64,000 nucleotides of DNA from Smithellaceae bacterium (GTDB taxonomy: Bacteria; Desulfobacterota; Syntrophia; Syntrophales; Smithellaceae). A program made the position numbers and the translations under genes. The stretch covers positions 1 to 64,000 of the forward strand of contig JAUYFM010000032.1 in assembly GCA_030690945.1 (NCBI GenBank), given 5' to 3'. Each line of letters starts with the position of its first letter. Positions within the stretch are counted from its first letter, which is position 1. Below are positions 37,968 through 41,350 of the stretch, in pieces. The notes beneath the pieces are model-generated. The model made no database searches. It saw only the letters and a list, made by a program, of their open reading frames with translations, and had not been told where the DNA came from.

Positions 37968-38617
37968 TCTTTCCATCCACTCTCCCCAATCAGACTGACA
38001 AAGCGGCAGCCACCCAGGTCTTCTTTCTTTATTTCAGCCGGATTTTCCACAGAGCGGGCTAATTTATACAAAGTCTGCACCTCGCGGCTGCCAACCGGAA
38101 CAACAAGTCTGCCTCCCGGGGCAAGCTGTTCGACCAAATATTGTGGAATCCGCGGAGCGGCGGCTGTCGTAATAATCGCATCGAACGGCGCTTCCTCTTT
38201 CCAGCCGTAAGAGCCGTCGCCGACACGAATGGCAACATTATAACAGTTAAGCCTGTCCAAAATCTTTCGCGCACGTGTTGCGAGGGTGGCCACCCGTTCG
38301 ATAGAAAAAACTCGATCAGCCAGCTTAGCTAAAATCGCTGTCTGATAACCCGATCCTGTACCGATTTCCAGGATACGCTCGCCGCCCTTTAATTCCAGAG
38401 CCTGTGTCATCAAAGCAACAATATACGGTTGAGATATGGTTTGTTTTTCTCCGATGGGCAAGGGGTTGTCGCTGTATGCCTGATCAATCAAACCTTCATC
38501 CACAAAAAGATGACGCGGGATAGTTTCCATCACTTTCAATACGTGGGCATCGCTGATTGAACGGGCCCGAATCTGCGTCTCCACCATCCGTGTGCGCTGC
38601 TTTTTGTATCTGTCCAT
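37964..38617 (-). CDS. pcm: Protein-L-isoaspartate O-methyltransferase
   Basis: A 217-residue repair enzyme that methylates isoaspartyl residues in aged proteins using SAM. It shows the family start (M-V-x-x-Q-I-R-A-R-S-I-S-D), FVDEGLIDQAYSDNPLPIG, the substrate loop QTISQPYIVALM, and SAM motif VLEIGTGSGYQ-type (RILEIGTGSGYQTAILA). The ATG 38617 overlaps the stop of the upstream gene (TGATG), and the gene stop overlaps nlpD (ATGA). pcm-nlpD is a classic pair. Confidence 0.95.
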   Translation of the reverse strand: MDRYKKQRTRMVETQIRARSISDAHVLKVMETIPRHLFVDEGLIDQAYSDNPLPIGEKQTISQPYIVALMTQALELKGGERILEIGTGSGYQTAILAKLADRVFSIERVATLATRARKILDRLNCYNVAIRVGDGSYGWKEEAPFDAIITTAAAPRIPQYLVEQLAPGGRLVVPVGSREVQTLYKLARSVENPAEIKKEDLGGCRFVSLIGESGWKE

Positions 38618-39009
38618 CAAATAGCCTGCATCTTTTTCCTTTTCGGAGGAATCTTGTAGAGTTGCCGAACCGTTTCATGCCTTCTGAGCCCCAGGGCTTC
38701 ACGAGTCACAATCAAATAATAATATTGGATTTCGGCTTTTTGACATGCTGTATTGAATTGATCAATGATCACATTAATTTCTTCAAATATAGACTGTTTA
38801 TTATTCATGTTTCCCTGACCGGAACCATGGTTTTGAACTATTCGCAGATGCTCGATCTTTTGTTCAATCTGCCGGTTGATCTTCATGAGCACTTCCAGCG
38901 CATCTTCCACGGCAAAGCCAGCCCGGCTCAAAACAGCCGCTCGTTCCCGCAATAGTTCTTCACACAAACTCTCGTGCTTATTTTCTTTTCCCGGTAGCAT
39001 AGCCTGCAT
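38617..39009 (-). CDS. Unknown helical protein upstream of pcm
   Basis: A 130-residue (from ATG 39009) mostly helical, charged protein with no signal and no recognised family. A coiled-coil-like stretch covers about residues 10-60 (ELLRERAAVLSRAGFAVEDA, then LMKINRQIEQKIEHL). The second half has AEIQYYYLIVTREALGLRRH and a very basic end (PPKRKKMQAI). It is translationally coupled to pcm by a TGATG overlap. A longer frame to 39042 lacks a ribosome site. Function unknown. Confidence 0.6.
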   Translation of the reverse strand: MQAMLPGKENKHESLCEELLRERAAVLSRAGFAVEDALEVLMKINRQIEQKIEHLRIVQNHGSGQGNMNNKQSIFEEINVIIDQFNTACQKAEIQYYYLIVTREALGLRRHETVRQLYKIPPKRKKMQAI

Positions 39010-39176
39010 AATAAAACCTGCCCTTGAATTCTTTTGCGGCATTTATCATTTAAGCGCTTAATTTTCAAGTTAAAAAGGCTTTGCAAACAGGGCGAAATTT
39101 TTTCCTTTACAGCTTGGGATTATTTCGTTAAATAGTCACATCTATTAACATCTCCAATAAATAAGCTGGTATCTCC

Positions 39177-40760
39177 ATGTGCCCTGAAGTCAAATTCCCC
39201 ATGTCCAAAGCAGTCCGCAAAGCCTATGGTCAGGGTGAGGAAGACGAAACCCTTGTCCCGCTGGTCTTGGTCAACCATCAAAATGAACCCGTAGGAAGAA
39301 TCCATGCGGGCGATTCGGTTATTTTCTATAATATCCGCGGTGAACGCGAGATTGAATTAACTCGCAGTTTTACGGAACAAAGTTTCCGTGAATTCCCGAT
39401 CGATAAAAATATCAACGTCAACTTTGCAACCATGATTGAGTATCAGAAAGGGTTAAACGTTGAGGTCGCTTTTAAGCCCCAGGGCGTTCTTTCCGACACA
39501 TTAAGTGATGTCATCGCCATGCAGGGCTTAACCCAGGCCAAAATAACGGAAGCAGAAAAAGCCGTTCATGTCAGCTTCTTTTTCAACGGCAAGAAATCCG
39601 ACCCGCTGCCGGGCGAAGAAAGAGTCGTCATCCCGACACGCAAAGATGTCAGGCTGTTTGATGAAGCCCCGGAAATGTCCATCGGGGAAATCACTGACGC
39701 GGCCCTCGCCAAGATTAAAGATCCATGCTGCAATTTTATCGTTGTGAATTATCCGAATGTGGATGTTGTCGGTCATATCGAAAATGAGCCGGCTGTGCTC
39801 CGTGCGATTCAGGCGGTAGATCAAAACGCGGGCCTTCTCATTGAGGAAGCGCTACGACAGGAAATCGCCGTGATGGTCACAGCCGATCACGGCACGGTTG
39901 AAAAATGGCTTTACCCCGACGGCGGAGTTGATACTGGTCATACGAATAGCCCCGTGCCTTTTATCTTACTGCACGCGGATCAAACATTGACACTGAAACC
40001 CCAGGGAACGCTGACCGACATCGCGCCGACGGCACTGGATATCCTCGGCTTGCCTGTACCCGCCTCCATGACCGGGATTTCGCTCATCGAACAAAACAGA
40101 CATTCCTTCGCACCCGTTAAACGCTTATTGCTGATGATACTGGACGGCTGGGGACTGAGCGATGCCGAAAACGGCAATCTGATCGCGCGCGCCGTAACGC
40201 CGGTTATGGACAGATTGATCAAGACCTGTCCCCTGGCAAAGCTTGCCGCATCAGGCGTCGCCGTGGGACTGCCGCCACAAACCGTGGGCAATTCCGAGGC
40301 TGGGCATTTACACATTGGCGCGGGCCGCCGGATTTATTCCGACCGCCTCAGTATTGACCAGTCCATCATAAGTCATGACTTTTACAAAAACCAGGCTTTC
40401 ATCAACGTCATGAGGATGGCTAAACAAAACGGCACGGCGCTGCACGTGATGGGTATTGTCTCTTTTTTCAGCTCCCATGGTTCCATTGAACACCTTTTCG
40501 CCTTAATGGACATGGCCAGAGAACAAGGCATTCCCCACCTCTTTATTCATGGAATGCTGGGCAGACGCGGCGAACAAGTGGAAAGCGGCGCCCGCTATAT
40601 TCAACAGGTGGAAGAAAAATGTCTGGCTTTGCGACTGGGACAGGTGGTATCCGTCATCGGCCGCTACTGGTCGATGGATCGCGAAGAAAACTGGGACCGG
40701 ATTGAAAAAACCTACCGGATGCTGGTTTATGGAGAAGGAGATAAAATCTCCGCGGAGTAA
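39177..40760 (+). CDS. Circularly permuted cofactor-independent phosphoglycerate mutase
   Basis: A 527-residue iPGM (3-PG to 2-PG) whose halves are in swapped order. Residues 11-120 correspond to the middle and end of the normal phosphotransferase domain and following metal domain (KAYGQGEEDE, VIFYNIRGERE, EKAVHVSFFFNG). 165-305 is the normal C-terminus (VVNYPNVDVVGH, VTADHGTVEKW, DTGHTNSPVPF). After a short linker (about 306-316) the normal N-terminus begins at RLLLMILDGWG (Asp323), runs through the phospho-Ser loop GNSEAGHLHIGAGR (Ser373) and GRYWSMDRE, and ends MLVYGEGD at the point where the first segment starts. Nearly all domain parts occur once. The usual D-G-R-D-T-P-P loop is changed to L-G-R-R-G-E-Q-V, so activity should be tested. 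ATG 39201 is an alternative start; neither start has a clear ribosome site. The macrodomain gene follows after five bases. Confidence 0.85.
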   Translation: MCPEVKFPMSKAVRKAYGQGEEDETLVPLVLVNHQNEPVGRIHAGDSVIFYNIRGEREIELTRSFTEQSFREFPIDKNINVNFATMIEYQKGLNVEVAFKPQGVLSDTLSDVIAMQGLTQAKITEAEKAVHVSFFFNGKKSDPLPGEERVVIPTRKDVRLFDEAPEMSIGEITDAALAKIKDPCCNFIVVNYPNVDVVGHIENEPAVLRAIQAVDQNAGLLIEEALRQEIAVMVTADHGTVEKWLYPDGGVDTGHTNSPVPFILLHADQTLTLKPQGTLTDIAPTALDILGLPVPASMTGISLIEQNRHSFAPVKRLLLMILDGWGLSDAENGNLIARAVTPVMDRLIKTCPLAKLAASGVAVGLPPQTVGNSEAGHLHIGAGRRIYSDRLSIDQSIISHDFYKNQAFINVMRMAKQNGTALHVMGIVSFFSSHGSIEHLFALMDMAREQGIPHLFIHGMLGRRGEQVESGARYIQQVEEKCLALRLGQVVSVIGRYWSMDREENWDRIEKTYRMLVYGEGDKISAE

Positions 40761-40765
40761 GGAAA

Positions 40766-41350
40766 ATGCAGGCCACGTTTAATCAAACACTCATCGAGCT
40801 TGTCTGTGGAGACATCACCCAGGAAAACACGGATGCCATTGTCAACGCCGCCAATAGCCGTCTCGCGGGCGGCGCCGGCGTAGATGGCGCCATTCACCAT
40901 GCCGGCGGGCCTGCCATTATGGCCGAATGCCGTCAAATCGGAGGCTGCCCGACAGGCCAGGCCGTCATCACAACGGGCGGCAACCTCAAAGCTCGATATG
41001 TCATCCATACCGTTGGACCCATCTATCGCGACGGCACACAGGGCGAAGCACAACTTTTGGCCGCCGCTTATCAGAATAGCCTGAAGCTGGCCGTAGAGAA
41101 TGGCGTGCAAAGCATCTCCTTTCCGGCTATCAGCTGCGGCGTTTATGGTTATCCGATCCAGGAAGCCGCTTATTTGGCGCTGAAGTCCTGCGTTGAATTT
41201 GTTCTGGAGAATAAAGAAATTCAGATCATCCGCCACGTTCTATTTAATCAACGGATATTTGACATTTTTGCGCAAGAAATCAATCACCTCGCGAGCTCGC
41301 TGCGGAGAATTGACGCTCGTCCCGCAACAGCGGGATTAAAAAAAGAATAA
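40766..41350 (+). CDS. Macrodomain protein (O-acetyl-ADP-ribose deacetylase type)
   Basis: A 194-residue MacroD/YmdB-type protein that binds and probably hydrolyses ADP-ribose derivatives. Key parts are VCGDITQENTDAIVNAANSR, the catalytic loop LAGGAGVDGAIHHAGG, H-T-V-G-P-I-Y, and FPAISCGVYGYPIQEAA. AAGGAAA precedes the start, five bases after the permuted iPGM, so both are likely one transcript. The last about 19 residues (from LASSLRRIDARPATAG) are encoded by an interspersed repeat that is found again at 61037-61092 outside any gene, so the tail is recent and probably not functional. Confidence 0.9.
   Translation: MQATFNQTLIELVCGDITQENTDAIVNAANSRLAGGAGVDGAIHHAGGPAIMAECRQIGGCPTGQAVITTGGNLKARYVIHTVGPIYRDGTQGEAQLLAAAYQNSLKLAVENGVQSISFPAISCGVYGYPIQEAAYLALKSCVEFVLENKEIQIIRHVLFNQRIFDIFAQEINHLASSLRRIDARPATAGLKKE
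41285..41340. repeat. 56-bp interspersed repeat, copy 1 (inside the macrodomain gene)
   Basis: Starts CACCTCGCGAGCTCGCTGCG and ends with the CCCGCAACAGCGGGATTAAA hairpin region. It differs from copy 2 (61037-61092) at three of 56 positions. Here it is translated as the C-terminal tail of the macrodomain protein. Confidence 0.85.

Follow-up and report, generated by a model that had tools for sequence, protein, structure and literature searches.

The permuted gene and its neighborhood

The window analyzed here, a stretch of 64,000 nucleotides from a Smithellaceae bacterium, carries on its forward strand, at 39177-40760, a circularly permuted gene resembling that of the cofactor-independent phosphoglycerate mutase (iPGM). 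It is one intact open reading frame of 527 amino acids with an ATG start and no internal stop. In phmmer searches against the PDB, residues 11-304 (39207-40088) matched residues 218-509 of the ordinary iPGM 1ejj at 205.6 bits, and residues 315-522 (40119-40742) matched its residues 4-211 at 177.1 bits. Both halves are therefore matched over the whole length of the enzyme, yet the collinear order of N-terminal metal part, transferase domain, and C-terminal metal part is permuted. The Pfam profile iPGM_N (217 positions) is split accordingly, with profile positions 136-217 at 39201-39449 and positions 1-131 at 40353-40745, i.e., its C-terminal piece precedes its N-terminal piece in the protein. 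Metalloenzyme (PF01676; 185.7 bits) and iPGM_N (180.2 bits) each hit the protein in two stretches, as did the NCBIfam model TIGR01307, with 464.9 bits against a cut-off of 330.65. The motifs follow the same order, with NVDVVGH (194-200), TADHG (235-239), and GHTNSP in the first piece and LDGWG (322-326), GNSEAGH (371-377), and GRYWSMDR (495-502) in the second.

The swapped motif order put forward in the original prediction is thus borne out by the split iPGM_N profile, the two phmmer pieces, and the presence of every named motif; aligned separately to iPGM, each half finds its counterpart. The old C- and N-termini are joined by residues 305-314 (40089-40118), a linker of about 10 residues where about 11 had been predicted. 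It is variable among orthologues, the region from SL to LDGWG measuring 15-22 residues in 34 of 36 (the pattern was unmatched in the other two). Approximately six residues (1ejj 212-217) between the two matched pieces fall at the cut site. The new chain ends lie inside the phosphotransferase domain, as had been proposed. Judged by its sequence, the gene is a true circular permutation of iPGM within one intact gene.

Five bp downstream, on the same strand, lies a MacroD-type macro-domain gene (40766-41350), which is kept in many Syntrophales loci and is the next same-strand gene in 32 of 81 stretches (80 loci plus the window), in 75 of which the permuted gene was placed by script. A divergent gene on the reverse strand (38617-39042) adjoins the permuted gene on the other side, and its cluster, whose representative has no Pfam match, occurs in 37 of the 81 stretches. 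On the other strand, Syntrophales loci carry PCMT, an M23/LysM peptidase, and a further gene, the representative of which lacks a Pfam match; in Aminicenantes loci, the neighbors are ABC-type genes. Directly downstream in Chloroflexota, a His_Phos_1 protein was found in three loci and an inositol-phosphatase-family protein (Inositol_P) in one, and a fifth locus gave only a weak match to SepP (E 0.00065). The four phosphatase-family genes (L088:7563-8186, L089:7554-8177, L102:7491-8183, and L107:7518-8372) overlap the permuted gene or lie 2 bp away. They may hint at a dephosphorylation of the product. In genome G723, an open reading frame that resembles a histidine phosphatase by eye (RHG motif) adjoins the permuted gene divergently. 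As a guide to the substrate we consider the neighborhood weak, since the neighbors are mostly non-metabolic and the phosphatase cases too few.

Predicted structure

The full-length model of the permuted protein reached a pLDDT of 93.4 and a pTM of 0.89. Its residues 7-305 align with residues 214-510 of 1o98 (Z 22.9, rmsd 6.9, 295 residues), and its residues 7-306 with residues 214-505 of 4nwj (Z 22.6, rmsd 1.7, 292 residues). When the C-terminal residues 308-527 (220 residues) were modeled alone, the pLDDT was 72.8 and the model aligned with residues 2-252 of 1o98 (Z 12.2, 198 residues, rmsd 4.5). Sequential aligners match only one half at a time, as expected for a permutant, and the structural comparison that had been suggested as a check gave this outcome, each half aligning separately with 1o98.

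Active site and conserved residues

To locate the differences in the active site, 102 permuted rows were set against 32 ordinary ones from the same phylum in 1ejj numbering, carried over through the phmmer alignment. The permuted rows represent 92 distinct N-terminal halves, as ten genomes were entered twice, and the ordinary rows combine 14 loci from the phylum scan with 18 of 20 chosen loci, the other two yielding no open reading frame under the filter; the divergent ordinary sequences L001, L216, and L217, which have Asp154 and carry Gln at position 335, were kept apart. Of 16 sites, most of which we take to have the catalytic and ligand roles assigned to them in iPGM, 15 are identical in all 102 permuted and 32 ordinary rows, i.e., D12, S62, H123, R153, R185, R191, R261, R264, E335, K336, D403, H407, D444, H445, and H462. 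The Ser62 nucleophile and the ligand set for two Mn ions are among these and are identical in 102 of 102 permuted rows. In the window's protein, the first piece (residues 11-304) holds R54, R57, E127, K128, D196, H200, D237, H238, and H255, and the second (residues 315-522) holds D323, S373, H434, R464, R496, and R502.

The sixteenth site is Asp154, presumably a substrate-site residue of the DGRD loop of iPGM, which is Asp in 32 of 32 ordinary rows and Gly in 102 of 102 permuted rows, so that the full substrate-binding set of iPGM is not present. The altered substrate loop noticed in the original prediction is therefore real: DGRD is changed to GRRG, followed by an invariant Glu, giving a GRRGE signature at residues 462-466 (40560-40574, forward strand) in place of DGRD(T), with Gly465 at the position of Asp154. 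The loop equivalent to that of His123 is rebuilt as well, reading FFSSHG at residues 430-435 (40464-40481, forward strand) where ordinary iPGM has mostly DGGVHS. Altogether, 22 positions differ between the permuted and ordinary rows, a differing position being one with a single residue in at least 93% of permuted rows and another in at least 85% of ordinary rows. Many of them adjoin catalytic motifs, and they include S432, S433, G435, G462, R463, G465, and E466, as well as E56, E58, A129, E202, T240, and W244. The loop signature tracks the chain order in all 26 loci compared, 11 permuted with GRRGE and 15 ordinary with DGRD. An ordinary-order protein with GRRGE, a possible pre-permutation step, was not seen among these 15 and the 32 ordinary proteins (14 shared).

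Distribution and origin of the permuted family

In the window's order, the permuted gene was found in 53 of 108 genomes at ≥90% completeness, being split or partial in three of them (G398, G1135, and G1152). In G398 (contig C36, L167), the frame of the permuted protein measures 685 aa, and an insertion separates its two halves and splits the match. A search of 59 genomes, comprising that of the window and 58 relatives, gave 35 in which a single frame holds a full-length permuted match and two more (G042 and G017) with contig-end fragments only, making 37 carriers. A scan of named genomes with an alignment query returned 151 relatives, of which the best 80 loci were kept. In each of these 80, the swapped order lies within a single frame; 79 passed the order filter, and L109, missed by one regular expression, proved to be swapped on inspection. 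The titles of these best 80 of 151 span Smithella, Syntrophus, Syntrophaceae, Aminicenantes, Chloroflexota/Anaerolineae, Stahlbacteria/WOR-3, Eisenbacteria, and B38; every one of the 80 is a MAG or an uncultured record. Among the matches listed for the window's phylum, at least 16 of 395 genomes have the permuted order, G126 and G252 contribute fragments (45-51% identity), and the remaining matches correspond to parts of ordinary iPGM, with identities of about 36-45%. The gene occurs in 12 of 247 genomes of the phylum of an Aminicenantes genome and in 2 of 400 of that of a Chloroflexota genome. Common within Syntrophales, the family occurs only patchily in other groups, and this distribution suggests transfer between lineages.

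These distributions bear on whether the gene could be an artefact of assembly or a pair of adjacent ordinary genes, a question for which the search for the same order in related genomes had been proposed as a check. The order recurs across several phyla, in about half of the genomes of the order and in every kept named locus. It is also present in a genome assembled as a single contig (G1125, 3,179,300 bp), where the gene has the same neighbors as in the window, in the order M23/LysM, PCMT, small unknown gene, permuted gene, macro domain, DciA-like, and methyltransferase (named by comparison with the window). We regard an artefact as practically inconceivable, and assembly error is ruled out by the order shared with relatives of several phyla and by the single-contig genome.

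The tree was built from 64 rows (60 different), with 49 permuted rows thinned from 102 and 15 ordinary rows; it was rooted by midpoint alone, and this root falls on the very long branch leading to L001. The 49 permuted rows form one clade with 100/100 support and a stem of 1.46 changes per site; permutation and active-site rebuilding share this one long branch. The fork that joins this clade to two ordinary rows is weakly supported (85/59), and all ordinary rows belong to a single phylum. We saw no intermediate of the duplication-then-end-loss route. Compared with six relatives, the permuted gene has dN/dS values of 0.13-0.23, which indicate that it is under purifying selection; together with the swapped loci and the frequency in the order, these values rule out chance.

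Other phosphoglycerate mutases in the carrier genomes

We took inventory of other phosphoglycerate mutases (PGMs), i.e., ordinary iPGM, PRK04135-type ApgM, or dPGM, in genomes that are largely MAGs, so that an absence may be a gap. Another PGM is present in 31 of 37 carriers versus 20 of 22 non-carriers (59 genomes; Fisher p 0.70), and at ≥90% completeness in 29 of 31 versus 16 of 16 (p 0.54). With another PGM about as frequent in carriers as in non-carriers, a role of the permuted enzyme as a routine replacement of the housekeeping PGM is unsupported. Of the 47 genomes at ≥90% completeness, a single one (G052) combines two of the three types. In 30 chosen carrier genomes from other groups, we found no full-length match to ordinary iPGM; 29 of them have PRK04135-type ApgM or dPGM, and G085 has neither. 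The PRK04135-type ApgM of G069, G071, and G080 consists of fragments only, assigned by score. The ApgM types were separated by TIGR00306 score per position, with 11 proteins checked against NCBIfam and all concordant; intermediate scores (G016, G040, and G052) and several fragments fall outside these 11. For comparison, PMC2964296 reports that 115 of 410 genomes with dPGM also have iPGM, two PGM types being not rare in bacteria, and that Syntrophus aciditrophicus SB has three archaeal-type iPGMs.

The window's own genome (69 contigs) has an ordinary-order iPGM of 548 aa on contig C54, scoring 424.3 bits with TIGR01307. This protein (L001:1219-2865 in G000) is very divergent, with an end branch of 4.2 and Gln at the position of Glu335. 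Another protein of this genome, L156 (G000:C24:5352-6542), exceeds the cut-off of two NCBIfam models whose names disagree, 'cofactor-independent phosphoglycerate mutase' and 'proposed homoserine kinase'.

Seven carriers have no ordinary iPGM, PRK04135-type ApgM, or dPGM over the cut-off, i.e., G002, G005, G012, G036, G042, G044, and G085. Only G012 (95%) and G044 (92%) are known to be ≥90% complete, the others for which we have values being G036 and G005 (88% each), G042 (85%), and G002 (69%); G036 has one dPGM match, below the cut-off. Enolase was found in six of the seven but not in G042. A PRK04200/TIGR02535-type protein, whole or partial and identified by score except in G085, is likewise present in six, not in G042. 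The permuted enzyme could be the PGM of these seven carriers. The PRK04200/TIGR02535-type protein, for which NCBIfam holds the conflicting names of mutase and proposed homoserine kinase, might also fill this role and, if it is a mutase, the carriers would depend even less on the permuted gene.

Proposed function and alternatives

Based on the conserved residues, we propose that the permuted protein is probably an active phosphomutase-type enzyme with Mn and Ser at its center, with a changed substrate site, working alongside the housekeeping PGM. As read from the sequence, the chain starts inside the phosphotransferase domain, traverses the C-terminal portion of the metal (phosphatase) domain, and reaches the N-terminal half by way of the linker. 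Two Mn ions, whose ligands we take from the iPGM assignment to be D196, H200, and H255 for one and D323, D237, and H238 for the other, would activate Ser373. This serine may take over the phosphoryl group of a small phosphorylated acid, whose binding would fall to R464, R496, R502, R54, R57, and K128, and the group would be returned to another hydroxyl of the same molecule, while the invariant Glu466 together with Arg463 may assume the binding of the acceptor hydroxyl and of an extra charge. The residue equivalent to K128 is Lys336 of iPGM, which PMC3145672 places at the phosphate.

Two findings speak for a substrate other than, or in addition to, 3-/2-phosphoglycerate: the rebuilding of the acceptor-side loop (Asp154 to Gly, DGRD to GRRGE, and the changed His123 loop) and the presence of another PGM in nearly all carriers. 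We therefore lean, by a modest degree, towards a permuted iPGM-fold subfamily with predicted mutase chemistry that most likely acts on something else than 3-/2-phosphoglycerate, or on more than this pair. The gene had originally been read as encoding one working permuted enzyme, and this stands as far as the intact gene, the retained Ser and Mn ligands, and purifying selection go. The phosphoglycerate-mutase part of that reading fares less well, in view of the Asp154-to-Gly change in all permuted rows, the 22 differing positions, and the separate PGM in carriers.

A plain permuted isozyme converting 3-PG to 2-PG, in which Glu466 replaces Asp154 and the loop changes adjust the same chemistry, would agree with the 15 of 16 catalytic or ligand residues that are kept, with the TIGR01307 cut-off being passed, and with the six enolase-bearing genomes without clear PGM types over the cut-off, although only two of them are known to be ≥90% complete. 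The uniform loss of Asp154, the similar frequency of another PGM in carriers and non-carriers, and the near absence of genomes with two clear PGM types speak against it, and we consider it a rather unlikely reading, though one to be taken seriously. The same change in the Asp154 loop, with metal and nucleophile residues kept, could also fit a phosphatase or an intermolecular phosphotransferase, in which the phosphoenzyme forms and water or a second molecule is the acceptor; related ApgM-type proteins are named phosphonoformyl transferase or proposed homoserine kinase in NCBIfam. Since all the Arg and Lys residues that we take to be the substrate ligands of iPGM are kept, this option seems improbable to us. 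We see evenly balanced chances that the family is an undescribed enzyme, i.e., a natural iPGM permutant of single origin in several phyla with a new phosphomutase or phosphotransfer reaction.

Relation to known systems

The original prediction knew of no description of such a form, and we likewise found no permuted iPGM described in the literature searched; the main texts of PMC2964296, PMC5382265, and PMC3145672 do not mention a permutation. The family is a natural permutation of a two-domain enzyme of central metabolism across several phyla that is tied to a changed catalytic loop in every row compared, and thus a well-defined case in which to ask whether permuting the chain helps enzymes to acquire a new function. 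At the same time, it is a trap for annotation: because the two halves together exceed the TIGR01307 cut-off, pipelines are likely to call the protein a phosphoglycerate mutase, which may be wrong. The carrier genome in a single contig would make the enzyme testable.

Among known systems, bacterial iPGM (GpmI/GpmM; TIGR01307; 1ejj and 1o98 of Bacillus stearothermophilus; 4nwj) is homologous to the permuted protein in both halves and shares its Ser nucleophile, two-metal ligand set, and Arg/Lys substrate ligands. It differs in having an ordinary chain, Asp154, DGRD instead of GRRGE, an unmodified His123 loop, and other residues at the 22 differing positions. The archaeal-type ApgM and its relatives (TIGR00306, PRK04135, and PRK04200/TIGR02535) have a related metal domain, residues 174-268 of the permuted protein matching TIGR00306 weakly (39.6 bits), but, unlike the permuted protein, they have about 400 residues in ordinary order and are encoded by separate genes in carriers. 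The wider alkaline phosphatase superfamily shares the metal-domain fold and the Asp/His metal ligands, as found with PF01676, the model alignments, and the residue comparison. Over parts of residues 100-311, the model aligns with phosphopentomutase 4n7t (Z 11.3), with ENPP1 6ael (Z 10.5), and with alkaline phosphatase 2iuc (Z 10.6), these alignments covering the metal domain only. Overall, the permuted protein is homologous to iPGM, yet it departs from it in two defining features, its chain order and Asp154.
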